This document shows, piece by piece, positions 1,755-33,375 of a stretch of 64,000 bases of DNA. The number at the start of each line of letters is the position of its first letter. Positions within the stretch are counted from its first letter, which is position 1. This DNA is from Clostridia bacterium (GTDB lineage: Bacteria; Bacillota; Clostridia; Oscillospirales; Butyricicoccaceae), in contig JAFSZV010000010.1 in assembly GCA_017455565.1 (NCBI GenBank), forward strand, positions 1 to 64,000, written 5' to 3'. The notes under the pieces were generated by a model that ran no database searches, was not told where the DNA came from, and worked only from the letters and a program-made list of their open reading frames with translations. A program made the position numbers and the translations under genes.

Positions 1755-2483
1755 TCATCCTTGCTTTGACAGCAGATAATAGCGCGGGCTGCGGCCCACG
1801 CAGTCGGTGTCCAAATCGGACACAGACGCAAAGATCAGATCCCCGGACACGGAGACCTTTTTCCGGCGGGCGGCGGAGCTGTATTTGCCGGCATAGAGGC
1901 CGGAGTCGGCAATGCAGAGCCTGCCGTCCAGCTCGCCCAGGATGGCCATGTAGTGGCCGCCGGTGGAAAAGAGCCCGCGCCCCGCCGTGTTGCAGATGGC
2001 CACGCCGCCGGACGCCAGATGGGCCCGCAGCTCGGCCGCGCTGGACGTCTGTCTGCAGATCACGCGATAAGCGATCTCGAGCTTTTCGGTCAGCCGGCGC
2101 ATGTCGGTCCCGCCGGGCACCCTCGCGCCCCAGGCGCGGGAAAACTGGGCCATGGTGGCCACGGGGACGCGGACGCCGATCAGCGCGCCCAGGGCGTTTA
2201 CGGCGGCGCAGACGCCGCAGCCGCCGCTTTTGACGGTGGCCTGCTCGTAACCCGGGGCCGGGTAAGGGATGGAGGCGTAATCATTTTGGTTTACTAAAAA
2301 GCCCCGGAGCTCCCGCAGCCAGCGCGTCTTCGGCCCGCGGGAGGTGGGATAGGTCACCGGCCAGAGGCCGGAGAGCGTACGCGGCCCCAGCTCGCAGAGA
2401 TCCCCGGCGTCGATGTAGCTTTTTGGATCGGCCGCGCCGGTGGCCTGGAGGACGGAGATCCGCCGAAAGGCCATGACCCTCAT
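1755..2483 (-). CDS. Phage endolysin, C39-like cysteine peptidase
   Basis: 242 aa, with a papain/C39-type catalytic set visible: SGGCGVCAAVNALG (Cys89), GGHYMAILGE (His177) and IADSG (Asp193). It is expected to cleave peptidoglycan cross-bridges or stem peptides at the end of the lytic cycle. Its ATG overlaps the holin stop (ATGA), which supports a lysis role. There is no signal peptide, so release should depend on the holin. The first ~75 residues are of unknown type and there is no SH3 or LysM domain. One dispersed 17-bp inverted repeat encodes VSDLDT about 20 residues before the C-terminus. Confidence 0.8.
   Translation of the reverse strand: MRVMAFRRISVLQATGAADPKSYIDAGDLCELGPRTLSGLWPVTYPTSRGPKTRWLRELRGFLVNQNDYASIPYPAPGYEQATVKSGGCGVCAAVNALGALIGVRVPVATMAQFSRAWGARVPGGTDMRRLTEKLEIAYRVICRQTSSAAELRAHLASGGVAICNTAGRGLFSTGGHYMAILGELDGRLCIADSGLYAGKYSSAARRKKVSVSGDLIFASVSDLDTDCVGRSPRYYLLSKQG
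1807..1823 (+). repeat. Dispersed 17-bp inverted repeat, copy 1
   Basis: GTGTCCAAATCGGACAC, exact consensus with arms GTGTCC/GGACAC, near the 3' end of the lysin gene. Identical to copies 2, 4 and 6. Proposed binding site for the prophage ParB. Confidence 0.85.
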
Positions 2484-2890
2484 TCGGACGCCCCCTCCTC
2501 CTCGTTGTAGACCAGAGCCTCATAGCAGGGCTCGGCGGTCTGATCGACCTCCGGCAGCGCCAGCAGCTCGCCGATGCCGGCACCGTGATTAAACTCGCAG
2601 ACGACGGATTCAATAAGCGTGTTCATTTCCAGCTCCGAAATGGGGATGCCCTTTTCCTGCAGCATGGCCACGATGCCCTCCTGCGCCTTTTTCAGCTTTT
2701 CGGGGCCGCTGAGGTCGTAGTAGAGCTGCTCCACCGCCTTGACACAGGTCCGGGCCACGTCGCGTTTGGTCCGGTTGTCCAAATACCGCTGGCACATGGC
2801 CTTGATCTGCATGCCGAGCCAACCGGCGACGGCGGTAAACACCGCCATGATGATGGGGATGATGTAAGTCACAAAGATTTCGCGATTCAT
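2480..2890 (-). CDS. Phage holin, LLH family
   Basis: 136 aa with one N-terminal membrane segment (FVTYIIPIIMAVFTAVAGWL) and a charged helical domain (KRDVARTCVKAVEQLYYDL, KLKKAQEGIVAMLQEKGI). This is the layout of the LL-H phage holin family (Pfam Phage_holin_6_1). Role: timed permeabilisation of the membrane so the lysin can reach the wall. The start has a strong ribosome site (AAGGAGGAAGAAAATG). It directly precedes and overlaps the lysin gene. Confidence 0.85.
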   Translation of the reverse strand: MNREIFVTYIIPIIMAVFTAVAGWLGMQIKAMCQRYLDNRTKRDVARTCVKAVEQLYYDLSGPEKLKKAQEGIVAMLQEKGIPISELEMNTLIESVVCEFNHGAGIGELLALPEVDQTAEPCYEALVYNEEEGASE

Positions 2891-2904
2891 TTTCTTCCTC
2901 CTTC

Positions 2905-4974
2905 TTACCACGTCACGGCCAGCACATAATCACCGGCCAGCAGCGGGTAGCCGTAGTAGACGTAAAGGTCGACACTTCCATCCGCGTTGACCCGCACAGC
3001 GCCGACGCTCCCGGTCACGCCATTCGTCCCGTCCAGCAGATTGACGGTAGGCATCGAGGTGATGGACGCGCCGCCCGTGGCCGAAGTCCTGAATTGAGCG
3101 CCCTGGTTTTCCGCGCTGCTGCCGATTTTTGCGTTTTTAGCGGCGACAAAGCCAAGCCCGATATCGGCAGATGGCGTCGTTTTGTACCACATTACGCCAA
3201 GCGAAGCATCGTTGCGGTGCTGCGCGATAACCGCCGCCAATGGGCTGGACGACGGGATCGCCGTGTACCAACTGGTGGCCGAAATTGCCTCCGTAACCGT
3301 AAAATGCGCCGTGACGCCGCCCTCCGTGTAATTGACAGGCGGATCGGCGATTACGCACACCATGTCGCCGGGCGTTTCATTTTTGGTGGAAAACCGGACA
3401 TAGGCCGCCGCCGTGATGTCCTTCATCGTGCCGGTGCCGCCGTCATAAACGGTTGTGCCGGGCGTAAAAGTAAGCGCCTCGCCCGCAACGAGCACCCCAT
3501 CAGAGATCATGCGCACAACGCGATAGGCCGCAATAAACGCATGATTAGCCCCGTAAAAACAGATGCCGCCGTTTGAGCCCTCAGCCCCCGTAAAGCCATC
3601 AAAGAAGATCTGTTTGCCTTGCGTGAACGGGATGAAACCCGTGACATTCTGCCCGCTTGCCGCCGTTTCCACGCCGGAGGAATTGAGCCTATATCCTTCC
3701 TTATAGCCCGTGCCGTTGTAAATGTTGCCCTGCTCATCCGTCGAGATCGGGATTTCATTTTCCGTTGCGGCCGTAGCCGAAGCGGTTATAACGACATTCC
3801 CCGTTACCCGCGGGATGGAGATCAAGCCGCGGTTTGCTGGATACTCTATCTCGCTGTAAACGCTCCCCTTAACGTCAACGCCGCCCATCGTGATTGCCAC
3901 GCTATCCAGCTTATAGCCGCCGCCCGGCGTGATGACGGCCTCGTAGGGCTGATACATCGGTGCGCTTGCCGCCGCATTGTCAATCGTGCAGTGTGCCAGC
4001 GTTTTCGACACCGTGACCGTCGGGACGGCCGGGGTCAGCGTTTCAGGCGTGCCGTCGATCATGGCGGCGCGGTAAGCGTTAATCTCCGTGGCGGTAAATC
4101 CCAGCGACACCGCGAAGGTGACGCACTTATCCCGAAAGGTGCTGCCGCTCAACGCCTCGATCTGCCCGATCAGATGCGCCCAATCACTGGTGCCTCCTTG
4201 ATAGTTGCCATTACGGGCCCTCTCGCTGTAAAAGCTCGTAAGCTCGTAATCCTTGTCGATGTCGCTCTGGCTCATTCCCAGCAGGCCCTCCAGCACACAT
4301 GCCAGCGTTCCGGTTCTGTCCGCGCCCATGGAGCAGTGGAAAATCACGGGCTCGCCGTGCGTAACGGCGTCAAAAACGGCCCGCAAGTTGGTGCGCCATG
4401 CCCCGGTGTCGGCAAGACTGTACATCGCGTAGCTCGGATGGCAAACATAGCGCAGTTTTCCGGGGAATGCTTCCACGTTGTCCGCGGTCAGATCCACTTC
4501 CACGCGGATTCCGAGCTGGTTGATAACCAGGTCTTCATCCGCTGCCGCAGGGTTGCCAGACCGGAACAGCAATCCATATTTTACGGTGCCGCCGTCACAG
4601 GCCCAGCCGCCCAGGTCCCTCATGTTGCTGGTGGCGCTGTTGATCCACCGCAGGCGGTCAAGGGGCTTCACCGTCCCTGCTTTGTTGGCGGTTGCAAACG
4701 GCGTTTTTACAAGCGGGATTTCGTTGTAAAACGTTACGCTGTCAACCGTTTTGCCGATCGGCTTAGTGTTGGCCGTCACTGCCGGCGTGGGCGCATAATT
4801 TTGGACATCGCTATCCGTGTAGGCCGCGCCGGTGTAATCCACCTCCGCCAGATAGCTCCGCACCGCCGCGGGGCACTGATGCCACGTAACATTTTCAATA
4901 CCAGACCCGCCGCCTCCACCGCCGCCGAGCCCTTTGCCGGCGGCATAACCCATCAAAAAATCATGATTGATCAC
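2905..4974 (-). CDS. Phage tail protein with embedded tyrosine-phosphatase domain
   Basis: 689 aa from a GTG that overlaps the preceding stop (GTGA) and follows AAGGAGG. Residues 1-26 end in a glycine run (GLGGGGGGGSG), typical of phage tail proteins. Residues ~108-300 match the Tyr_phosphatase3 type: NMRDLGGW at 117-124, GLLFRSG at 134-140, LGIRVEVDL, and the P-loop HCSMGADRTG with Cys214 and Arg220 intact. Residues ~310-415 resemble Ig-like surface repeats (YEAVITPGGGYKLDSVAITM). The rest is beta-rich and probably receptor- or glycan-binding. It lies between fibre genes and holin, so I infer a tail fibre or tip protein. An enzymatic phosphatase in that place is unusual; phosphoester removal from surface polymers or delivery into the host are both guesses. 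Confidence 0.8.
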   Translation of the reverse strand: MINHDFLMGYAAGKGLGGGGGGGSGIENVTWHQCPAAVRSYLAEVDYTGAAYTDSDVQNYAPTPAVTANTKPIGKTVDSVTFYNEIPLVKTPFATANKAGTVKPLDRLRWINSATSNMRDLGGWACDGGTVKYGLLFRSGNPAAADEDLVINQLGIRVEVDLTADNVEAFPGKLRYVCHPSYAMYSLADTGAWRTNLRAVFDAVTHGEPVIFHCSMGADRTGTLACVLEGLLGMSQSDIDKDYELTSFYSERARNGNYQGGTSDWAHLIGQIEALSGSTFRDKCVTFAVSLGFTATEINAYRAAMIDGTPETLTPAVPTVTVSKTLAHCTIDNAAASAPMYQPYEAVITPGGGYKLDSVAITMGGVDVKGSVYSEIEYPANRGLISIPRVTGNVVITASATAATENEIPISTDEQGNIYNGTGYKEGYRLNSSGVETAASGQNVTGFIPFTQGKQIFFDGFTGAEGSNGGICFYGANHAFIAAYRVVRMISDGVLVAGEALTFTPGTTVYDGGTGTMKDITAAAYVRFSTKNETPGDMVCVIADPPVNYTEGGVTAHFTVTEAISATSWYTAIPSSSPLAAVIAQHRNDASLGVMWYKTTPSADIGLGFVAAKNAKIGSSAENQGAQFRTSATGGASITSMPTVNLLDGTNGVTGSVGAVRVNADGSVDLYVYYGYPLLAGDYVLAVTW

Positions 4975-5198
4975 AGGGCAGCCTCCTTGACGCTGAACAT
5001 GGGATCCCATTTATCGTCTTCCCGGTTGTAAAAGCTCACCAGGCCGGACGATTCAACCAGCATCGACGCTTCGGCCAGATCTGCAGCATCGGCGCCGGTG
5101 GGTTTAACATCATCTTCGTGGCATGTGCCTTCCCGGTAATAGAGAAATTTCCCATCGGCAAAGCCTGCAGGCCGCTCGGTGTGCCAAAAAATGCTCAT
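4971..5198 (-). CDS. Small phage tail-region protein, 75 aa
   Basis: The product (SIFWHTERPAGFADGKFLYY, then LVSFYNREDDKWDP) has no recognised domain, signal or membrane segment. The start at 5198 is preferred over an upstream ATG because AAGGAAG lies 5-10 bases ahead of it. It overlaps the phosphatase-tail gene by four bases, so the two are probably translationally coupled. A small fibre accessory or chaperone is possible. Confidence 0.6.
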   Translation of the reverse strand: MSIFWHTERPAGFADGKFLYYREGTCHEDDVKPTGADAADLAEASMLVESSGLVSFYNREDDKWDPMFSVKEAAL

Positions 5199-5238
5199 CA
5201 AACTTCCTTCTTTCTTCAATTATTTTATTTAGCGCGTA

Positions 5239-5913
5239 TTAAGCATCATCACCAGCATCAACCGTAGTTGGATTCAGCCATTCCGTCGTGGCAACTATGA
5301 TTTCCGTGCCCGGCACTGCAATGGCGTCATAGCTGGCCACATTCCAGCTGGCCTTGCTAATTAAGCTACCTCTGTAGCGGTAACAGTTCATGCCTTGCGC
5401 CGAGAGAATCTCATTTTGCGCGTAAGATGTTTTCTTTTCAAGCATGCTGAAACCCAGAAACGAGCCGGGAAGGCCGCTCTCTGCCAGGAGATACGATTGA
5501 TAATTTGCCGTGTTCGTTACACCGTTGTTTGAGCCGATCACCATTTTCTTGACGTGAATTACCAGATAACGCCCGAACCGCCATCGGGTTTGTGACGAAG
5601 CAGCCAGGCTGCCCTCGACGCCGAGGACCGTCACCCCCTGCTTGATGTTGCTGGGGATCAGCTTTGCCTGCTCGGCGGCGTCAATGGCCACGGTGCCGGA
5701 TCCATCGTGATAGCCCTGGGGGACGGTGTAGACGCCCGCCTTGCTAACGATCGCCCCGGTGACGCCGCCGCGGTTGGGCATGGTGCCCGTGATGGCTGCG
5801 CCGGAGGCGTCGTGCGCCGTGGCCCCCGAGAGCAGGCTCCCGGCGGCCACGGTGTCGGACGTCAGATCGATGAGGGTGGTGCCGTTTGCCAGCACCACCT
5901 TATTCGCGGCCAT
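5239..5913 (-). CDS. Phage tail fibre-like protein, distal paralogue
   Basis: 224 aa. The first ~105 residues (LIDLTSDTVAAGSLLSGATA; GTMPNRGGV; YTVPQGYHDGSGTVAIDA; LGVEGS) repeat those of the next gene upstream almost motif for motif. This pattern belongs to collar or fibre repeats in Firmicutes siphoviruses. The remaining ~120 residues are unrelated and beta-rich, the likely specificity end. ATG/stop overlap with the paralogue shows tight coupling. Confidence 0.75.
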   Translation of the reverse strand: MAANKVVLANGTTLIDLTSDTVAAGSLLSGATAHDASGAAITGTMPNRGGVTGAIVSKAGVYTVPQGYHDGSGTVAIDAAEQAKLIPSNIKQGVTVLGVEGSLAASSQTRWRFGRYLVIHVKKMVIGSNNGVTNTANYQSYLLAESGLPGSFLGFSMLEKKTSYAQNEILSAQGMNCYRYRGSLISKASWNVASYDAIAVPGTEIIVATTEWLNPTTVDAGDDA

Positions 5914-7114: not shown

Positions 7115-7756
7115 TCAGATCGTTTTGATGAGGCCATAGGCCTTTAGGATGCCGACAACATTATTGAGGACGTTAAGGTAATTGCTCGATGTTGCGGCGG
7201 AGTAGCCCTGATTCGCCGAGGACGTGTAGACTGTTTTTACCGTTTGCGGCGAAGCCCCAAAAAAGCCGAGACTGCTGTAAGCGGCTCCAATCCGGTGAGC
7301 TCCGTTGCCGGCGGTAAAATTATCGATGCTTGCTGCGGCAGCGTTGATGCCTTTCCACGGTAGCGATGATGTGCCAAGCGTCACGTTTTTCTGCGTTGCA
7401 CTGTCTTTCGGCGCCAGTGCCGAGGCATTGAGGCTCACCGTGCGCACGACGTTACCGGATCGGTAAGTCAGCTCAGCCAGCTCCACCGGATCAGGCTCCT
7501 CAGGCGTGTCCGGCTGGGCGGGAGCGCCCACCACGTACTCCACCACATAAGTGCCGCTGTCCGGCAGGATCTTGACGCGGTCGCCGGCGGCAAAGACCAC
7601 GGAGGTGTTGCATTTGTAATGCTTCTCACCGGCTTCGGCCTCGCCGTCGAAAATCAGGGTGACACCGTCCTCGTAGACGGCGCCCACGGTGGCAAAATTG
7701 CAGACAGGCGTCTCCTGCTCCGGCTGCTGCGCCACCATCTCGGTAATACCCTCCAT
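7115..7756 (-). CDS. Phage minor tail/fibre protein, 213 aa
   Basis: The first half is a compact beta domain (VGAVYEDGVTLIFDGEAEAG; AAGDRVKILPDSGTYVV). A proline-rich hinge (APAQPDTPEEPDPVEL) leads to a fibre-stem-like half (GTSSLPWKGINAAAASIDNF) and a C-terminal helix (YLNVLNNVVGILKAYGLI). Ribosome site AAAGGTGGTGATC. The position after the tail-tip protein suggests a baseplate or fibre subunit. Confidence 0.65.
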   Translation of the reverse strand: MEGITEMVAQQPEQETPVCNFATVGAVYEDGVTLIFDGEAEAGEKHYKCNTSVVFAAGDRVKILPDSGTYVVEYVVGAPAQPDTPEEPDPVELAELTYRSGNVVRTVSLNASALAPKDSATQKNVTLGTSSLPWKGINAAAASIDNFTAGNGAHRIGAAYSSLGFFGASPQTVKTVYTSSANQGYSAATSSNYLNVLNNVVGILKAYGLIKTI

Positions 7757-8796
7757 CAGATGATCACCACCTTTCGCGCTTCGTGGGTCATGAGCTGTCC
7801 GACGCCCAGCGACATCGACCAGCCGGTCTCCTCATAGATCCCGCTGAATCCGGGATGGTCCACCGCGATCACGTCGCCCAGGCCGTGTCCGGGCTCGTTG
7901 AGGGTGGAAAGCTGGATCTGCTGGGTGGCCAGCATGGACTCGTTGCAGAGCCGGTCTGCGTAGGCCTGCAGGGCCGCCTGCGAGGCGATCTGGTCCACCT
8001 GCGACACGGCGACGATGCGGCGGCCGCGCCGGACCGTTGAGAGCGAGGACAGCGGGTTGTCGTTGACTGCCGTGGCCACCAGCGGCGCCGCCAGATCCGG
8101 GTTGGAGCAGCGGACCACAAAGACGTTGGCCCGGCCGAAGACGTCCAGGGCCGCGGTGGCCTCTTCGGCCAGCGGCTCCTGCAGCAGGTCCGACGCGCTG
8201 TAGCTGTGAGCGATCCGCGCCGCGTCCGGTGCGCGGTAGGGCTCGGCGTGGGCAAAGCCGCGAGAATCGAGCCAGATTGGATCGTAATTGATCTCGCCCA
8301 GCAGCTGATTGATGATCCGCAGATAAGGCGTGCCCAGATCCCAGTCTTCCCGGTCGGTGGCCAGCGTCAGCATCGAGGGCTCCACCAGCTGCAGCGCGAT
8401 CCCGGCCTCGGTGAGCATCTGGCCCACGACGTCGGTGTAGCGCGTCCCGGCGGCAAAGGTCCGGCGGGACTCCAGCGCGGCCTCCTGCAGGCGATAGCTG
8501 CGGTCGTAGGCCTCCACGGCCACGGAAGCGCCGGACTCGCCGTAGATCTGCTGCACGGTGGTGGGGATGTAGATCCCCAGCGGGTGCTCCACGCCGTCCA
8601 GAATCATCACCGGCTGCAGCTCATCGCTCAGCCAGTCCACGGCGCTGTTGGCCCGGAAGGTGCCGGAAAAGCTGGTCTGGATCTCGGCGGACTTGCTGGC
8701 GATGATGTTGGGAGGCTCGGCCGTATCAAAGAGCAGCTGCGTATGCGCAACGCCGCGGCGCAGCACGTCCACGCGGTAGCTCACATTACGGATCAA
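7756..8796 (-). CDS. Phage tail-tip/baseplate hub protein (Gp37-like)
   Basis: About 346 aa. The layout resembles siphovirus hub proteins (SAEIQTSFSGTFRA, LSDELQPVMILDGVEHPLGI, VEAYDRSYRLQEAALESR), ending with a domain that handles DVIAVDHPGFSGIYEETGWS. The start is uncertain: the TTG at 8796 sits 9 bases after GGAGG, while TTG 8802 and GTG 8784 are alternatives. It overlaps the upstream gene. Expected to cap the tail tube and connect to fibres. Confidence 0.75.
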   Translation of the reverse strand: MIRNVSYRVDVLRRGVAHTQLLFDTAEPPNIIASKSAEIQTSFSGTFRANSAVDWLSDELQPVMILDGVEHPLGIYIPTTVQQIYGESGASVAVEAYDRSYRLQEAALESRRTFAAGTRYTDVVGQMLTEAGIALQLVEPSMLTLATDREDWDLGTPYLRIINQLLGEINYDPIWLDSRGFAHAEPYRAPDAARIAHSYSASDLLQEPLAEEATAALDVFGRANVFVVRCSNPDLAAPLVATAVNDNPLSSLSTVRRGRRIVAVSQVDQIASQAALQAYADRLCNESMLATQQIQLSTLNEPGHGLGDVIAVDHPGFSGIYEETGWSMSLGVGQLMTHEARKVVII

Positions 8797-10765
8797 CGAC
8801 AATCACCTCCTCGGCGATCTGCCAGACGGTGGCGGCGTAGACGGTATAAAACTCGCCGCCGGTGCGGGAGATGGCGTCCAGGATGCCGGTGACCATCCGC
8901 CCGCCGGGCGTTTTGACGCACACCCGCTTGCCGGGCAGCGCGTCGCATGCGGCACACAGGGCGGGATCGTTGGTGGCCCAGGTGACGGACACGCTGCGGC
9001 TGCTGTGCTCGGAGATCTCCACGACGGGATATGCCCGGCCGGCCAGATAGATCTGCGCGGTCTGCCGCTGCAGCGACTCCTCAAAGGTGCGGTGCTGCGC
9101 GTCGGACAGCTCCAGCCGGAGCCACGCGCCGGAGTCCAGCTCGCAGAGCATCAGCGTGTCGGCGGCGACGGTGACGGCGACCTCGGGCGACAGGCCGTAA
9201 TCATCCGAGCTCTCATAGATCCCGCGGATCTGATAAGTCACGGGCCCGATGCTGCAGGGATCCTCGTAGACGGTGTCCTTGGTGACGGCCACAACCGCGC
9301 CGTTGCGATAGACCACAAAGCGGTCGTAGGCGCCGGAGGTCCTCCAGGCCAGGCGCGCCGTGTGGGTGGCCTCCACGGTGAGGGTGATGGCGTCGCCCTC
9401 GGTGTGGGTGACGGTGACGGGAGCGGAGCCCCACTCCGACCACAGCCCGTAGCTGTTGATCACCCGGACGCGGACGATGTAGCTGCCATCGGCCAGCCAG
9501 ATCGGGCAGTGCCAGCTTTGCGCGGCGCCGTAAATGAGGCCGGAGGCGTAATCGCCCAGCCCGATCTCATAGCCCTGCTGGCCGGTGGTGGCCCATCGGA
9601 TCTCGGGCCGCGGGCCCTGGGAGATCACCGTGACGCCGGGCGTTGCGGGAGCAGCCACCACGATGATGCTCACGGCGTCGCTCCAGGCGCTGACCACGCT
9701 GTCGGCGTTGTAGGTGCGGACGCGCCAAGCGTCGGCGGTGGTGGACAGCGTGCCGGCGGGGATCACCGTCGACGTGGCGGAGCCTGTCCCCGACTGGATG
9801 GTGGTCCAGGTGCCGGAGATCCGTGCCTGCAGGTCAAAGGCCGTCTGCGCCGTGCCGGTGGAGATCACATGATCCCAGACAAAGGTGTTGTCCTCGCCGC
9901 CGTCGAGGACGGCGCTGATGGGCGACCGGGGGACGGCGGTGGGCGTGGCGTCGGCGGTGGTGATGGTATACCAGGGCGAGGTGGTCACCTCGCCGGAGTT
10001 GGCCGTCAGCTGGATCTGCCACTGGATCTCGCCGGCGGGAAAGGTCCCGGCCGGAATGGTGACGGAGCTGTCCTCAAACGCGGCCACGGTGTGGATCTGG
10101 CCGGAGGAACCCTCACGCCAGCGGAAAAAGCCGCTCTCCTGCACCACGGGCGTGATGCAGGAGCCATTCGGCCGCGCGTCCCAGGCAAAGACGGCAGGCT
10201 GCGCCCGATCCACAAAGCCGGAGGTAGGCGCGCAGGAGCGGATGGAGAGGCCGACGGTGGCCGTTTCGTCCACCACAAGCTTGAGCGCCGGCTTGCGGGC
10301 CGTGGTGGCCGAAGCCGAGGCGATCTCGGCGCTGATGCCGGATCTAAAATCATTGACCAAGATCAAAAAGTTATGGACAATCCTATCCGCGTCATAGTCA
10401 TCAACTGCGCAGCTCCCAGCACACGGAAGGTCAGCATCTGTTTCGATTTCGTCGTAGTCCCAATGGGCATCACAATTGGCGTAGGTTAAGTTGGCTAAAT
10501 CGATCGATTTGCGATCAGCGTACCCCACACACAGACCATAGATCGCGCCAGAACTTCCGCGCTTGCCGTCATAGACGTAACAGGTCACCTCGCCGTTTAA
10601 AATCTTACAGAATTCGTACCCGGCGGCAACAGACAAATCCAGCTCCGAAACAAGGATTTCCTGATAGTCCAGCGTGGTCTTTGCCGGGGCGCTGTAATGG
10701 GCGTTGACGGCGTTGCGCGAGATCACGCAGGACTCGGAGGCCCGCAAAGTTAAGGTTTCGCTCAT
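8786..10765 (-). CDS. Phage tail protein with fibronectin III-like domains
   Basis: 659 aa. The N-terminal ~180 residues are a tail-tip type domain. Then come several Fn3-like units, visible from Trp/Tyr-rich strands such as GEIQWQIQLTANSGEVTTSP, DAWRVRTYNADSVVSAWSD and GSYIVRVRVINSYGLWSEWG. The C-terminal ~120 residues are again tail-type (YLAGRAYPVVEISEHSSRSV). Translation is coupled to the tape-measure gene (ATGA overlap). Likely a distal-tail component; the Fn3 units may bind cell-wall glycans. Confidence 0.8.
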   Translation of the reverse strand: MSETLTLRASESCVISRNAVNAHYSAPAKTTLDYQEILVSELDLSVAAGYEFCKILNGEVTCYVYDGKRGSSGAIYGLCVGYADRKSIDLANLTYANCDAHWDYDEIETDADLPCAGSCAVDDYDADRIVHNFLILVNDFRSGISAEIASASATTARKPALKLVVDETATVGLSIRSCAPTSGFVDRAQPAVFAWDARPNGSCITPVVQESGFFRWREGSSGQIHTVAAFEDSSVTIPAGTFPAGEIQWQIQLTANSGEVTTSPWYTITTADATPTAVPRSPISAVLDGGEDNTFVWDHVISTGTAQTAFDLQARISGTWTTIQSGTGSATSTVIPAGTLSTTADAWRVRTYNADSVVSAWSDAVSIIVVAAPATPGVTVISQGPRPEIRWATTGQQGYEIGLGDYASGLIYGAAQSWHCPIWLADGSYIVRVRVINSYGLWSEWGSAPVTVTHTEGDAITLTVEATHTARLAWRTSGAYDRFVVYRNGAVVAVTKDTVYEDPCSIGPVTYQIRGIYESSDDYGLSPEVAVTVAADTLMLCELDSGAWLRLELSDAQHRTFEESLQRQTAQIYLAGRAYPVVEISEHSSRSVSVTWATNDPALCAACDALPGKRVCVKTPGGRMVTGILDAISRTGGEFYTVYAATVWQIAEEVIVVDP

Positions 10766-12639
10766 CCTGTCACCCCCATTCGCTCAGCCCGGCGGGCATT
10801 CTTCGCGATCCGGACGATGTCGTTGAATTCCTTGACGTCTTTGGCCGCGATCGTGATGTTGTAGACGTCGCCGCCGCCCCGGCTCTCCTGGGCCGTCTGG
10901 ATGCGGCTGCCGGAGGGCAGCCAAACCCGCTCGGGGCCGCCCTCACCCACCCAGGTCATGCCGCCGCGCCAGTAGTCCGTGCCGGCCGCGTTGCCGCCGG
11001 TACCCTCCACAAAGATCTTGCGATCCCAGTCGTAGTAATAGCTGGGCGCTGCCGGCGTGCTGTCGTCGCTCCCGCTGCTGTAGTTGCCGACCCACGTGCC
11101 GCGCTCGGCGTCCCAGACGGATGTCTCGGTGGCGTCGCCGTACCAAATCTTGTGGAGGTTGGACAGCTTGCCGTTTTTGGCGTTGAGGCCGAGATAGGTC
11201 TTGATGCCGTCCCAGTCGCCGCTCATCACGCTGGAGATCAGGCCGATGGTGTCGGCCATGGCGGCCAGGGTCTCCAGAGGACCCTTGAGCCCCGCGGGCA
11301 GCTTGCGCATGGATTTCAAAAACTTGCCGACCGACTCGCCGCCCTTGATCAGGGCTTTGCCGATGCTGGTCAGCAGGCCCAGCAGATTCTTGGCGAACTC
11401 CAGCAGGCCGCTGTTTTTGAGGCCCTTGCTCAGGGCGCCCACAAGCTCGGTGCTCATGTCGAAAAAGTCTTCCACCGCCGGAGCAAACTCGGCGGCGATG
11501 TCCTTTTTGCCGCCCTCCAGCCGCTTGTTAAAGCGCTTGACGGCGTCGTCCACGTTGGTGAGCGCCTTGACGCCCTTATCGTCCAGGACATAGCCGGTTT
11601 TTTCGGCCTCATCGCCCAGATCCCGGAGGGCCGAGCTGCCCTGGATGATCAGCGGATTGAGCTCCTGCGCGCTCTTCCCAAAGATGTCCATGGCCAGAGC
11701 GTCCCGCTCGGTGGCGTTGCCCACACGGCCCAGGGCGTCGATGGCCTCGTAAAAGACCTCTCGCGCGTCCCGCAGCGAGCCGTCGGTGTTGGTGATGCTG
11801 ACGCCCAGCCTGCGGAAATTGTCCTCCATGGCCGTGCTGCCGTCCCGGGCGGCCTGCATGTTGTTTGTGAGCTTGGTAATGGACCCGGTGATGGTGGACA
11901 CGGAGACGTCCACAAACTCGGCGGCATACTCCAGCTTTTGCAGGTCCGTCACGCTGATCCCCGTCTGCAGGGACAGGGTGGACAGCTCATCGGCGGCCGA
12001 GGCGGCCTCTTTGGTCATGTTGATCAGCGCCTTTTCGGCCTTGATCACGGCGGCGGCCAGAGCAGCGGCGCCGGCTGCCGCGGCGACGAATTTGGGATTG
12101 ATGGTGCCCAGCTTGTCAGCGGCGTTTTTGACTCCGGCGGGGAGCTTGATCCCCAGCTTGTCGGTGAGCGCCTCCAGACCCTGGCCCAGCGTGGCCGACT
12201 GCTCGCCGGTCTGCTGGGTGGCTTCGTCCATCTTGGCCAGCGCGCCGGAATAGTCGTCGGTGGCCTGCTGCGCGGCCTCCAGCTGCGCGTTGTTGTCCCG
12301 GAGCGAGCGCTCCATCTTGATCAGATCGGCCTCGGCGCTGTTGAGGCTTTGTTGCCATTTCTGAGTGCGGGTGTCGGACTCGCCGTAAACCTCGGCCGAT
12401 TTTTCCAGTGCTGCCCGTGCGGCATCGACCTTTTTTCGCTGCTCCTCGATCTGCCGGCTGAGTATATCTCCTTTTGCCGACAGCGCGTCTACGCTATCGG
12501 CGTTTTCGGCATATTTTTCGGACACCAAACCCATCTCGGTTTTCAACGTTCGCAGCGACACGTTAATGTCTGCGATCGCTTGTTTGTATTCCTTCTCGCC
12601 GGTTATCGTGATTGCATTACCGATTTTTCCGAGCGCCAT
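10762..12639 (-). CDS. Phage tail tape measure protein
   Basis: 625 aa. Residues 1-150 are a long coiled coil (IEEQRKKVDAARAALEKSAE; MERSLRDNNAQLEAAQQAT). A phage tail-tape segment follows, with alanine-rich hydrophobic helices (AAAGAAALAAAVIKAEKAL; SIGKALIKGGESVGKFLKSM). Length sets tail length: at ~0.15 nm per residue a tail near 90-100 nm is expected. Start ATG after AAGGAGGTGGCTAA, directly behind the frameshift-extended chaperone. Confidence 0.92.
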   Translation of the reverse strand: MALGKIGNAITITGEKEYKQAIADINVSLRTLKTEMGLVSEKYAENADSVDALSAKGDILSRQIEEQRKKVDAARAALEKSAEVYGESDTRTQKWQQSLNSAEADLIKMERSLRDNNAQLEAAQQATDDYSGALAKMDEATQQTGEQSATLGQGLEALTDKLGIKLPAGVKNAADKLGTINPKFVAAAAGAAALAAAVIKAEKALINMTKEAASAADELSTLSLQTGISVTDLQKLEYAAEFVDVSVSTITGSITKLTNNMQAARDGSTAMEDNFRRLGVSITNTDGSLRDAREVFYEAIDALGRVGNATERDALAMDIFGKSAQELNPLIIQGSSALRDLGDEAEKTGYVLDDKGVKALTNVDDAVKRFNKRLEGGKKDIAAEFAPAVEDFFDMSTELVGALSKGLKNSGLLEFAKNLLGLLTSIGKALIKGGESVGKFLKSMRKLPAGLKGPLETLAAMADTIGLISSVMSGDWDGIKTYLGLNAKNGKLSNLHKIWYGDATETSVWDAERGTWVGNYSSGSDDSTPAAPSYYYDWDRKIFVEGTGGNAAGTDYWRGGMTWVGEGGPERVWLPSGSRIQTAQESRGGGDVYNITIAAKDVKEFNDIVRIAKNARRAERMGVTG

Positions 12640-22711: not shown

Positions 22712-23194
22712 TCACACCTCGCCCAGCACGTCCAGCGCGGCCACGGCCTCGCCCTCGGTCAAAAAGAGCGAGCGGCCGACTTGATTCAGCCGGCGGCGCT
22801 GGAAAAGCTGTCCGCCGGTGGGCGTCCGATAGACGGTGTCGATGTAGCAGCGGTTGGGCCGCTGGCCGATGGTGATGCTTTCCACCGTCACCGGCCGGAC
22901 GATGCCCGCCGACTTGATTGGCTGCCACACCGTCGCCCCGGGCGAAACAGGTAGCTCCACCGTGATCTTGTCATTTTCCATAAGGTCCTCCCTCCCCCGG
23001 AGGGCTTCGCCGCCCTCCGGGATGATGATATAATAATACTCCTCCGGCTCCGCCTGGCGGCGCAGTGCCCGGAGCTCCCGCAGGTTGCCGATCCAGATCA
23101 GCGCAAGGATGGCGGCCACCAGCAGCGCCAGAAGGATAAAGACATAATCGAGCCCACGCCGCAGCGCCTTGAGCTGCTCTCTGATCTCATCCAT
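22712..23194 (-). CDS. Early phage protein: membrane anchor joined to small cytosolic domain
   Basis: 160 aa. Residues 10-38 hold a membrane helix (YVFILLALLVAAILALIWIG) preceded by a short cytosolic helix. From Met72 (ATG at 22981, with its own GGGAGGA site) a second domain ends in GRSLFLTEGEAVAAL, the C-terminal motif also seen in the two small early proteins near 29 kb. Either one fused gene or two products by internal initiation. Confidence 0.6.
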   Translation of the reverse strand: MDEIREQLKALRRGLDYVFILLALLVAAILALIWIGNLRELRALRRQAEPEEYYYIIIPEGGEALRGREDLMENDKITVELPVSPGATVWQPIKSAGIVRPVTVESITIGQRPNRCYIDTVYRTPTGGQLFQRRRLNQVGRSLFLTEGEAVAALDVLGEV

Positions 23195-24656
23195 CCGACG
23201 CCTCCTTTTTCTGCGGCAGCGGCGTCCACCACAGCGGCGTCACCGCAAACGTGAGCTTCGATGCCGGGAAGCGCCACGCGCCATCTTCCCACAGTGCGAG
23301 CCTCACGCGGCTGTCGTCGCTCACCGGGAGGATCACCGACGCCAGCATGGATTTCTCCGGCGGCTTGGTCGAGCCCGGATACCATCCGCCCGCGCCGAGC
23401 TCCGGCTCGGGCCGCGCGGATGCCGGTGTGGGGTCGTCGGTGATCCCGCAAAGATAGTCGGCAGAGCAATCCAGCAGCCCGGCCACGGCGGCAACCGTTT
23501 CCATCTCACTGACGCCGTAGTTGTAGACGTTCAGGCCGGCGTCAAACTCCGGATCGGACAGGGCGGCATTGATCGCGGTGGTGTGCCATTGCGGGATGAG
23601 CCCGGTGGCCTTGGCGATGTCGTTGACCGTCAGCCGTTTGGCGTTGGCCAGCGGCATGATCCGCTGCCACACGGCGCGGACGCGCTGCCCGTTTTTCCGG
23701 CCCGCCGTCTTGTTTTTCCGCTCTTCCTCGGCCTTGCGCTTTTTGGCGGCGGCTTTCTCCTGCTTTTTCTTTTCCTCGGCCGCCGGGCAGCGGAAGGAGC
23801 AGTCCTTCCAGCAGCTCATGCAGCAGGTCGCCCCGTCGCACATTTCCCAGCTGTTGCGCACTTTGATGTCGTGCTCGGCAAAGCGCAGGCCGTTGGTGCA
23901 TTCGGGGCAGCCATTCAGGGAGGCCCTCGGATGCAGGTAAGCCTCAGCGTTGGCCAGCACCCTGCCGGTAACGTAGCCGTTTACCGATGATTTGGAGCTG
24001 CTCTCGGAGATCATTTTCTGCAGCACCTCCGGCATGCGGGCGATGTTATAGGCGGCGTCGGTGGAGATCTGGCCTTGCTCCCAGCGCAGCGTGAGATCCG
24101 TCCGCAGCTTGGTGCGGATCACCTTGAGGGTGTTGAGCTTTGTCTTGCTCACCTTAACGGCCTCTGCAACATGGTCGCGCATCCGACCCGGAAACTCCAC
24201 GCCCTTTTCCTGGAGCTCGTACAGCAGGCGCTCCACCCGCTCGGCCTGCATGCTCAGCTCGCCGTCGGTCATCCGCCGGGTGTCGGCGTTGGCCAGGATG
24301 AGCTTGAGCTCGGTCATTTCCGGCAGCGCGTCCGGCTGCTCGACGATGCAGGGCACCTTTGCAAATTGATCCTTACCCTCGTTGATCAGCAGCTTCAGCG
24401 CGGCCATGCGACGGTGACCGGAGATCACTGTGTACCCGCCGTCCTCAGGCCGCACCAGGATCGGCTGCTGCAGGCCCACCAGCTCGATGCTGCCCGCCAG
24501 CTCTTCCACGTTGGCCACGCTTACGCTGTAAAAATTCTTGGGATCGGGCCGAATCTTGTCGATGTCGATGTAGACGATCTGCTTTTCGCCGGTGTCCGAT
24601 TTGGACACCGACCCCAGCACGGCCGCCAGGTCAAAGCCTTTTTTGGTCTCGCTCAT
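23187..24656 (-). CDS. parB: ParB-family partition protein with Cys cluster and XRE-like domain
   Basis: 489 aa; ATG overlaps the ParA stop. Residues ~25-125: ParB N-terminal fold (YIDIDKIRPDPKNF, LVGLQQPILV, ISGHRRMAALKLL). ~128-215: central DNA-binding helices (SKTKLNTLKVIRTKLRTDLT, GQISTDAAYNIARMP). 250-290: eight cysteines (CPEC ... CDGATCCMSCWKDC ... C), a likely zinc site. ~293-325: Lys/Glu coiled coil. ~340-407: XRE-like HTH (LTVNDIAKATGLIPQWHTTA; AVAGLLDCSADYLCGITDDP). ~425-482: DUF551-like end (WYPGSTKPP ... TPLWWTPLP). A typical ParB is ~280-350 aa and lacks the last three parts. It probably binds the dispersed inverted repeats, one of which (VSKSDT, residues 17-22) is inside this gene. 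Confidence 0.85.
   Translation of the reverse strand: MSETKKGFDLAAVLGSVSKSDTGEKQIVYIDIDKIRPDPKNFYSVSVANVEELAGSIELVGLQQPILVRPEDGGYTVISGHRRMAALKLLINEGKDQFAKVPCIVEQPDALPEMTELKLILANADTRRMTDGELSMQAERVERLLYELQEKGVEFPGRMRDHVAEAVKVSKTKLNTLKVIRTKLRTDLTLRWEQGQISTDAAYNIARMPEVLQKMISESSSKSSVNGYVTGRVLANAEAYLHPRASLNGCPECTNGLRFAEHDIKVRNSWEMCDGATCCMSCWKDCSFRCPAAEEKKKQEKAAAKKRKAEEERKNKTAGRKNGQRVRAVWQRIMPLANAKRLTVNDIAKATGLIPQWHTTAINAALSDPEFDAGLNVYNYGVSEMETVAAVAGLLDCSADYLCGITDDPTPASARPEPELGAGGWYPGSTKPPEKSMLASVILPVSDDSRVRLALWEDGAWRFPASKLTFAVTPLWWTPLPQKKEASDG
24592..24608 (-). repeat. Dispersed 17-bp inverted repeat, copy 6 (inside parB)
   Basis: GTGTCCAAATCGGACAC on the minus strand, exact consensus, at codons 17-22 of parB. 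A centromere at the par locus itself is usual for ParABS. Confidence 0.88.
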
Positions 24657-25438
24657 TTTTTCGCACCTCCCATCCACTCCAGGACAAAGGCGCGGTAATC
24701 GATCCCCGCAGCCGAGCGCGGCGAATAGATCCGCAGAGGCTCCTGCGCAAAGGTCATGGCGTTGACCTTGTCGCTCCGCCGGATGGGCCCGTAGACGTGC
24801 AGGCCGGATTTTTCCCGCAGTGTGCCCTCCGCCTGGATGATCAGCGGATCCATGTACCACATAGTAGGCAGCAGCCCCGCCACCCGCAGCCGCGGGTTGA
24901 TCTCCCGCATGTTGGCCACCTGCTTCAGGAGGTTGGCCATGCCCTGCAGGCTAAAGGCGTCCAGCTTGACGGGGATCAGCACCTCATCCGCCGCCACCAG
25001 CGCCGCCGCGCTGGCCGCGTTAAAGGCAGGAGGGCAGTCGATCAGGACGTTGTCGTAGACGTCGTCCTCGACGCAGGCCTCCAGCAGGCTCCGCAGGACG
25101 CCCGCGGAAGTCACGCCGCTTTTGAGCGTGCTTAGGTCCAGATCCATCAGCTCATCGGAGGCCGGCAGGAGATCCACGCCGTCGACGTTGCTCGCCGAGA
25201 TGTAATCCTCGTAGCCGCCGGGGCTGCCGGCCAGCTCCGGCATGAGCAGGAGATCCGCGAGGGTGTTTGGCGTGCCGTCACGGGCCGGCGACAGAAATTC
25301 CGTGGTGTTGCACTGGCTGTCTGCGTCGATCACCAGCACGCGCCGGTTGTGATCGCCGGCGAGGATCGCCGCCATGTTGATCGCGGTGACGGTCTTGCCG
25401 ACGCCGCCCTTGAGGTTAAGAATTGCTGTAGTCTTCAT
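24653..25438 (-). CDS. parA: ParA-family partition ATPase
   Basis: 261 aa. Deviant Walker A KGGVGKT at ~10-16, Walker A' VLVIDADSQCN, Walker B NVLIDCPPAFN. No N-terminal DNA-binding domain, so it is the small Soj-like type (Ib-like size). The ATG at 25438 lies 7 bases after AAGGAG. Directly coupled to parB. Expected to move ParB-bound DNA over the nucleoid. Its presence in an integrated prophage suggests a plasmid-like phase. Confidence 0.92.
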   Translation of the reverse strand: MKTTAILNLKGGVGKTVTAINMAAILAGDHNRRVLVIDADSQCNTTEFLSPARDGTPNTLADLLLMPELAGSPGGYEDYISASNVDGVDLLPASDELMDLDLSTLKSGVTSAGVLRSLLEACVEDDVYDNVLIDCPPAFNAASAAALVAADEVLIPVKLDAFSLQGMANLLKQVANMREINPRLRVAGLLPTMWYMDPLIIQAEGTLREKSGLHVYGPIRRSDKVNAMTFAQEPLRIYSPRSAAGIDYRAFVLEWMGGAKK

Positions 25439-25451
25439 CACTACGCTCCTT

Positions 25452-31831: not shown

Positions 31832-32872
31832 ATGAGCTCCACACCTCAAAAACTTCCAAGCGGATCCTGGCGCTGCATCGCTTATTTGGGTAAGAATTCA
31901 GATGGAAAGCGGATCCGCAAGAGCTACACGGCGGCGAAAAAATCGGAAGCCCGCCGCCTGGCCGACGAGGCCGAGGATGCCGCGGCGAGGGCCGCCCCGA
32001 CCAAGCTCGACGACACCGACACCTACGGCGAGGGGATCGACAAGCTCCTGCAGCTGCGCGGCTCGGTGCTGTCGCCGACAACGGTGGCCGCCTACAAAAA
32101 GATCAAGCGAAACTATTTGCTGCAGCTCCTCCCGATGAGGATCTGCGACTTGACGGACGTCACAATCCAGGCCGCTGTGACCGCGGAGGCCGAAAAGCAC
32201 GCTGCAAAGACTGTCGTCAATGCTTACGGCGCTTTAGCTGCCGTGCTGGCGCTCTACCGGCCAAAATACGAGCCAAACGTGATCCTGCCGCAGATCATGC
32301 AGCAGGAAATTGTGATCCCGGACCAGGCGACCGTCAATGCACTGATCGATGCTGCCGACGCCCGAGGCGACAAAGATCTTGCGCTCGCCATTATGCTGGG
32401 CGCTCAGCTGGGGCTCAGACGGTCGGAAATCTGCGCGCTGACGCTGTCAGACGTCGCGGGTGGCGTCGTCCGGATCAATAAGGCCGTCGTCATCGACGCC
32501 GACCGCAAATGGCAGGTAAAGCCGCCGAAGACAAAGGCCGGCACTCGCACACTGTCGCAGACCGAGCCGATCCGCCAGCGGATCGAGCAGCTGCACGGTG
32601 CGCCCGGCGATCCGGTGATCCGTCTTACGCCGGACGTCATCACCAAGCGCTTCGGCCGTCTGCAGCAAGCGCTTAAAATCAAGTCCTTCCGATTCCACGA
32701 TCTGCGTCATTTTAACTGCTCCGTCATGCTCTCGCTGGGGATCCCCATGATTTACATCACCAGCAGACTCGGCCATGCGTCCGACGCCATGGTCCGGCGG
32801 GTTTACGGTCATCTGATGGGGGACAAGCTCCAGGACGTCAACGCTCAGATGAGCGCTTTTTTCGGCCCGTGA
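31832..32872 (+). CDS. int: Phage tyrosine integrase
   Basis: 346 aa. N-terminal arm-binding region (GSWRCIAYLGKNSDGKRIRK), SAM-like core-binding domain, catalytic domain with Arg196 (LGLRRSEICAL), His289-x-x-Arg292 (FHDLRHF), His315 (RLGHASD) and Tyr325 (RRVYGHLMG). A TATAAT at 31798-31803 is a likely -10. The gene ends 154 bases from attachment core and tmRNA; ssrA 3' ends are classic targets of this family. Confidence 0.95.
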   Translation: MSSTPQKLPSGSWRCIAYLGKNSDGKRIRKSYTAAKKSEARRLADEAEDAAARAAPTKLDDTDTYGEGIDKLLQLRGSVLSPTTVAAYKKIKRNYLLQLLPMRICDLTDVTIQAAVTAEAEKHAAKTVVNAYGALAAVLALYRPKYEPNVILPQIMQQEIVIPDQATVNALIDAADARGDKDLALAIMLGAQLGLRRSEICALTLSDVAGGVVRINKAVVIDADRKWQVKPPKTKAGTRTLSQTEPIRQRIEQLHGAPGDPVIRLTPDVITKRFGRLQQALKIKSFRFHDLRHFNCSVMLSLGIPMIYITSRLGHASDAMVRRVYGHLMGDKLQDVNAQMSAFFGP

Positions 32873-33026: not shown

Positions 33027-33054
33027 TTTGGTGGAGGCGAGGGGAATCGAACCC
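33027..33054. repeat. Prophage attachment site, ssrA copy
   Basis: 28-bp partner of 1069-1096; part of the functional tmRNA acceptor/T-arm. Integration restores an intact ssrA. Confidence 0.95.
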
Positions 33055-33375
33055 CTGTCCGAAAACCCATCCTCCGGTCTTTCTCCGAGCGCAGACGGTT
33101 ATTTGCGTTCCCTCGGGCGGGCGACAGCCGTCAATCTCACGCCTTTGGTAGCTTCATGATGCATGGCACGGGCAAAGCTTACCGTACTCACGTTCGCCAC
33201 TGATCCACGCCTTTATCCGGGCCGTGGCCCTCCCGGTAAAGACGGCCGCCTTAATCAGGCAGCGTAAGACAAATTAGAATTGTCGTTTGTTTGAAAGGTT
33301 GCCCATTTTATAGAGGTCAGGCGCCTCTGCTCGCTTAACCGGCCTCAAGATCCCCGTCGAAACCTTTACGCCCCC
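33029..33375 (-). ncRNA. ssrA: Transfer-messenger RNA (tmRNA)
   Basis: 5' end GGGGGCGTAAAGGTTTCGAC and 3' end GGTTCGATTCCCCTCGCC + TCCACCA form the tRNA-like domain, with encoded CCA. The tag frame ends in NDNSNLSYAA before a TGA (33255-33257), giving the usual YAA/LAA-like degron. Rescues stalled ribosomes with SmpB, whose gene is 1.8 kb away. The 3' end is the prophage attachment site. Confidence 0.95.

Follow-up and report, generated by a model that had tools for sequence, protein, structure and literature searches.

A predicted tail-fibre phosphatase encoded at the end of the tail module of a gut-Clostridia prophage

The protein encoded at positions 2905-4974 (minus strand, GTG start, 689 amino acids) of the window, the 64,000-nucleotide stretch of DNA that was analyzed, is on balance probably the distal tail fibre or adhesin of a temperate phage that infects gut Clostridia, with a PTP-fold phosphatase that would dephosphorylate a phosphomonoester on the host surface. 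The coding sequence was identified as an open reading frame with a match to PF13350; from the evidence presented below, we infer virion presence, catalysis, a surface substrate and a benefit to infection. In the proposed mechanism, the N-terminus would attach the protein to the tail, the C-terminal beta modules would bind the cell surface, and the central phosphatase would remove phosphate from the host-surface phosphomonoester, with Cys214 acting as nucleophile, Arg220 holding the phosphate and Asp219 serving as general acid. As in deacetylating tail fibres, the receptor would be modified and its chain would not be cut, and the outcome could be either stepwise or irreversible binding or the clearing of a masking group.

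Contig C3, which belongs to a genome of 1.86 Mb, begins with the 64 kb of the window, and a 32-kb prophage occupies the left end of this stretch. The prophage is delimited by perfect 28-bp direct repeats at 1069-1096 and 33027-33054 (no strand), and is integrated at the 3' end of a tmRNA gene (33029-33375, minus strand) that carries the right attachment-site repeat; a phage integrase is encoded at 31832-32872 on the plus strand. A minus-strand series comprises terminase, portal, protease, capsid, tape measure (10762-12639) and tail genes, including a tail protein (7756-8802, phrog_1887) and a repeat protein encoded upstream within the tail module (5239-5913) and assigned to phrog_13589, which is also matched by anchor-bearing phage proteins. 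The phosphatase gene is the last of this tail series. Its start codon overlaps the stop codon of a small upstream gene (4971-5219, minus strand) in the sequence GTGA, and it shares a 7-base overlap with the next gene downstream, a holin (Holin_LLH, PF09682; 2480-2911, minus strand), which is followed by a probable lysin (1755-2483, minus strand) that resembles C39-like peptidases (PF13529) only weakly and below threshold. The gene is thus located in the tail module and, as shown below, encodes an intact and conserved phosphatase, in agreement with the original prediction of a phage tail protein. PHROGs contains no family for its product. The possibility of a host gene was rejected: the phage-type protein is found in no other genome of the host's family, where the best match attains at most 71 bits versus 438.

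The prophage also encodes ParA-like (24653-25441) and ParB-like (23187-24860) proteins. In sibling genomes (L083, L084 and L085), resident holin and lysin genes are paired as in the prophage (window 1755-2911) and show 54-73% identity to its genes; several of these pairs lie beside housekeeping-type genes and outside any recognisable prophage. Module exchange was assessed through such holin neighbourhoods, which in sibling genomes mostly lacked a recognisable prophage, and a single locus (L086) was informative; in that genome, the slot before a related holin is filled by a long fibre-like protein.

The phosphatase domain (residues 111-307; 4054-4644, minus strand) was defined by profile and by fold. 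The Pfam model PF13350 (Y_phosphatase3) matches residues 115-255 with a score of 87.6 bits (cut-off 22.2) and an E-value of 1.7e-24, so the match is not due to chance. The signature reported in the original prediction is intact and follows the same numbering from the GTG codon, with NMRDLGGW starting at residue 117, GLLFRSG at residue 134, and Cys214 and Arg220 forming the CX5R active-site loop within the P-loop HCSMGADRTG (residues 213-222; 4309-4338, minus strand), which also contains Asp219. The roles of these residues are assigned by homology to MptpB (PMC3091653). An AlphaFold model of residues 25-316 has a mean pLDDT of 92.8, and its best solved structural match is a C. difficile PTP (8dhi/8dhj; Z 18.8 over 184 residues at 2.3 Å for 8dhj), followed by MptpB (1ywf, Z 18.2), both well above the values of about 13.5 obtained for the next-ranking folds. 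Both enzymes were also matched when the PDB was searched with a profile of the relatives, the C. difficile PTP being again the best solved match (E 2.9e-16). Unlike the window protein, the C. difficile PTP is a stand-alone cellular enzyme with a GKDR loop and without tail modules. MptpB shares the N-x-RD-x-GG region, the CX5R loop, the general-acid Asp of the P-loop and the fold; the window domain differs from it in lying inside a tail protein with an N-terminal subdomain of its own, and in having Ala for the P-loop Lys. This substitution bears on substrate preference. In MptpB-like atypical lipid phosphatases, the Lys and Asp of the P-loop HCXXGKDR are strictly conserved, the Asp serving as general acid and the Lys in phosphoinositide binding (PMC3091653). 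The window protein has HCSMGADR and does not belong to this class by its P-loop; since it retains the Asp but has Ala for the Lys, the enzyme should be able to hydrolyse phosphomonoesters, and phosphoinositides are not predicted as favoured substrates.

Scans of viral contigs and Clostridia genomes identified 33 distinct relatives, most of them at phage-type loci. Conservation of the active site among homologues, on which the original prediction had been made to depend, was checked in this set: the Cys and the Asp are present in 33 of 33 relatives and the Arg in 31, the position of the MptpB phosphoinositide-binding Lys is occupied by Ala in all 33, and PF13350 matches each of the 13 full-length relatives. 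In the two exceptions (L016 and L228), the catalytic Arg is replaced by Lys (GADKT), and these proteins are perhaps binding-only or inactive; catalysis may therefore not be essential everywhere. In close pairs of relatives, the phosphatase is the least-changed part of the protein. For the L005/L006 pair, in which synonymous sites are saturated and dN alone was hence compared, dN is 0.026 in the phosphatase versus 0.118 in the C-terminal part, and the L008/L014 pair presents zero amino-acid changes over 205 codons of the phosphatase; comparisons of the window gene with L010 and L039 yield dN/dS values for which synonymous sites are near saturation. The phosphatase is under purifying selection.

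The remainder of the protein was divided into modules on the basis of alignments and models, bearing in mind that the full-length model has a mean pLDDT of 61.7 and is poor outside the phosphatase. Residues 1-24 (INHDFLMGYAAGKGLGGGGGGG; 4903-4974, minus strand) form a putative N-terminal anchor, a position taken by unrelated anchors in the relatives, and include at residues 15-24 the glycine-rich stretch noted originally. A conserved N-terminal subdomain follows (residues 25-110, WHQCP...Y..DY....I..YAP; 4645-4902, minus strand). Beyond the phosphatase, the C-terminal half is beta-rich, as had been proposed, and consists of a beta-repeat module (residues 317-420, ..ITMGGVDV..ISIPRVTGNVVITA; 3715-4026, minus strand) common to the metallophosphatase tail proteins described below, a second module (residues 421-545; 3340-3714, minus strand) and a C-terminal domain (residues 546-689; 2908-3339, minus strand). 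Residues 505-689 share 50% identity with a phage protein that has no phosphatase (L132, E 1e-55), and residues 322-545 match the protein of L129 (E 9e-23). The C-terminal repeat is present at 80 loci; the same beta-repeat also ends shorter proteins (270-360 amino acids; L188, L207 and L196) that resemble major tail proteins, a resemblance judged by eye only.

On unrelated phage backbones, relatives of the window protein are found at the end of the tail module, before a holin or an endolysin. Many share a 40-residue N-terminus (MAKKLYEES..IADAIR.KNG..) that is joined to other bodies, leucine-rich repeats and Ig-like domains among them, in at least 80 phage contigs, and at one locus (L006) both genes immediately upstream carry this anchor as well. 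The N-terminal motif of the window protein is of a different kind and has no match in the viral contigs. A tblastn search of INPHARED phages, which hold hardly any whole-protein relatives, with two anchor sequences also returned no match. Since the window protein's own anchor has no match in other tail proteins, its proposed attachment to the tail rests on gene position and on the relatives, among which N-terminal anchors and C-terminal modules are exchanged, the modules being common to other tail proteins. Judged from sequence and gene order, presence in the virion appears well supported.

The same scaffold also carries a second, unrelated phosphatase fold. Three proteins (L120, L129 and L140) combine the 40-residue N-terminal anchor and related C-terminal modules with a calcineurin-like metallophosphatase body bearing the motifs DxH, GD, GNHD and HGHxH, and the L140 protein matches the PTP protein of L007 with an E-value of 4e-28. 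The metallophosphatase identity is based on one Pfam match among 44 proteins scanned, with the others assigned by motifs and local profiles, and a sequence search of the PDB with the metallophosphatase gave no match. A survey of the 80 loci harboring the C-terminal repeat recovered PTP bodies together with nine loci presenting metallophosphatase motifs; the motif test used in this survey missed three PTPs (L189, L190 and L228), all of which were caught by the profile. A metallophosphatase profile search identified ten loci, and at L266 and L273 the metallophosphatase gene lies directly before lysis genes recognised by eye. Two further repeat-bearing proteins (L195 and L200) carry SGNH-type motifs. 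The sharing of one scaffold by unrelated phosphatase folds, the strongest of the new findings, is best accounted for by phosphate removal being the function under selection. It is an evenly balanced proposition that phages of gut Clostridia use phosphate-removing tail fibres in which PTP and calcineurin-like folds are swapped within one scaffold because their hosts display a surface phosphomonoester, as either receptor or shield. In one 150-kb phage contig, IMGVR_UViG_3300031994_000017 (L120/L191 and L143/L192), a metallophosphatase fibre occurs together with a PTP gene, the latter broken by frame breaks.

Different explanations of these data were weighed against a fibre that dephosphorylates the host surface. 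Fibres chiefly bind, and the PTP fold might act as a phosphate-recognising lectin needing no turnover, as the CX5K loops of L016 and L228 in place of CX5R would allow. This reading is unlikely, since the nucleophilic Cys and the general-acid Asp, which only catalysis requires, are retained throughout the relatives and the Arg in all but those two, and a swap for a metallophosphatase with intact metal-binding motifs would be hard to account for. An effector, injected or released at lysis, that dephosphorylates host signalling proteins or defence components has in its favor homology to PTP effectors and a weak match, below cut-off, to a polymorphic-toxin phosphatase family (Tc-R-P). The C-terminal adhesin repeats, the exchange of tail anchors and the size of the protein are better suited to a fibre, and the secretion of close cellular relatives with phage-type P-loops (the second gene of L013, and L018) points to an extracellular substrate, leaving an effector role improbable. 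Delivery of an effector on infection, one of the two roles offered by the original prediction, is accordingly possible and a poorer fit to the anchor and to the C-terminal adhesin modules.

The position of the gene near the prophage end, between tail and lysis genes, is also one where moron genes reside, and a secreted relative with dockerin-like repeats (L013) falls in the phage clade, both of which are compatible with lysogenic conversion, that is, expression from the prophage for use by the host in, for instance, phosphate scavenging or a superinfection block. The lack of a signal peptide, the overlap of the gene with both of its neighbours and the tail modules of the relatives make such a role very unlikely. 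Large phosphatase arrays, some of them secreted, in the same order and class suggest abundant extracellular phosphoesters, and the fibre could conceivably act away from the host cell, on mucin, on phosphate esters from the diet or on biofilm matrix, where these hinder the phage in the gut; given that the tail-fibre slot favors the host surface, this is the sort of target we would least expect. For the fibre acting on the host surface, the other role offered originally was the removal of phosphate from teichoic or other surface polymers. PTP-fold enzymes cleave phosphomonoesters and not phosphodiesters such as those of the teichoic backbone. In the host genome, for which 100% completeness is listed, neither a TagB/TagF-type polymerase (PF04464) nor LicD was found. 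A teichoic backbone is therefore an unlikely target on both counts, although the host genome does encode a TagA/WecG-type transferase, and other wall glycans are therefore possible.

Among known tail enzymes are those that cleave sugar chains, those that deacetylate and those that hydrolyse the phosphodiesters of teichoic acids. To our knowledge, the phage receptors of gut Clostridia are largely unknown. Were the present reading correct, a phosphomonoesterase in the tail would extend this chemistry, would imply that gut Clostridia display a phosphorylated surface component that has gone unrecognised, and would offer a tool for finding that target. If the two-fold class of fibres proposed above is real, dephosphorylation would also join chain cleavage and deacetylation as a common way in which tails modify receptors. 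Because two unrelated phosphatase folds share one scaffold, the idea can be put to the test with simple assays. The nearest functional parallels are SGNH deacetylase fibres (G7C gp63.1 and Klebsiella prophage fibres), which likewise are non-depolymerising fibre enzymes that remove a substituent, and of which the Klebsiella prophage fibres have been demonstrated to be esterases (PMC13123978). The repeat module of the window protein also occurs with the SGNH-type bodies of L195 and L200, but a phosphatase and an acetyl esterase differ in fold and in substrate. Tail glycerophosphodiesterases, in the baseplate of Lactobacillus phage Ld17 and in the enterococcal GDPD (PMC10194240), similarly place a phosphoester hydrolase in a tail module; these are teichoic-acid phosphodiesterases, whereas the PTP-fold enzyme of the window is expected to cut monoesters. 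Among proteins automatically named 'Tyrosine phosphatase family protein' in UniProt/BFVD, those of Ackermannviridae sp. ctQad106 (E 1e-46), Myoviridae sp. ct4uh47 (E 1e-40) and Siphoviridae sp. ctAsH36 (E 6e-17) evidently belong to the same family as the window protein, and the structural matches of the first two span about 600 columns. Our literature search found no paper describing these UniProt phage relatives and none on PTP domains in phage tails.

In a tree of 67 domains, 20 phage sequences and one secreted protein form a strongly supported set (98/96). This set is separate from the GKDR enzymes and nests within cellular phosphatases, of which several are secreted. Given this nesting, the phage domain probably derives from a cellular, possibly secreted, phosphatase, although the tree root is not known and the direction is one that we infer. 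A simple hydrophobicity scan found no signal peptide in the window protein or in its phage relatives, while a secretion signal (signal peptide or lipoprotein) is present in the second gene of L013 and in L018. At L013 (9150-16942), a small cassette encoding a collagen-like tail protein, a PTP fibre, a GH25 endolysin and a holin-like protein lies between host housekeeping genes, and beyond SHMT the same locus encodes the secreted PTP, a 756-residue protein that carries dockerin-like repeats and falls within the phage clade. Multi-gene arrays of phosphatases of the superfamily are found on single contigs (G131:C51, G089:C20, G113:C100, G148:C9, G221:C269 and G248:C108) in some genomes of the host's order and class, with some of the array phosphatases reaching about 1300 amino acids and some being secreted. 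In a sibling species of the host's genus, locus L098 (G002:C169) encodes a secreted phosphatase of 540 amino acids with an HCLEGKDRTG loop, the N-terminal half of which looks S-layer-type.
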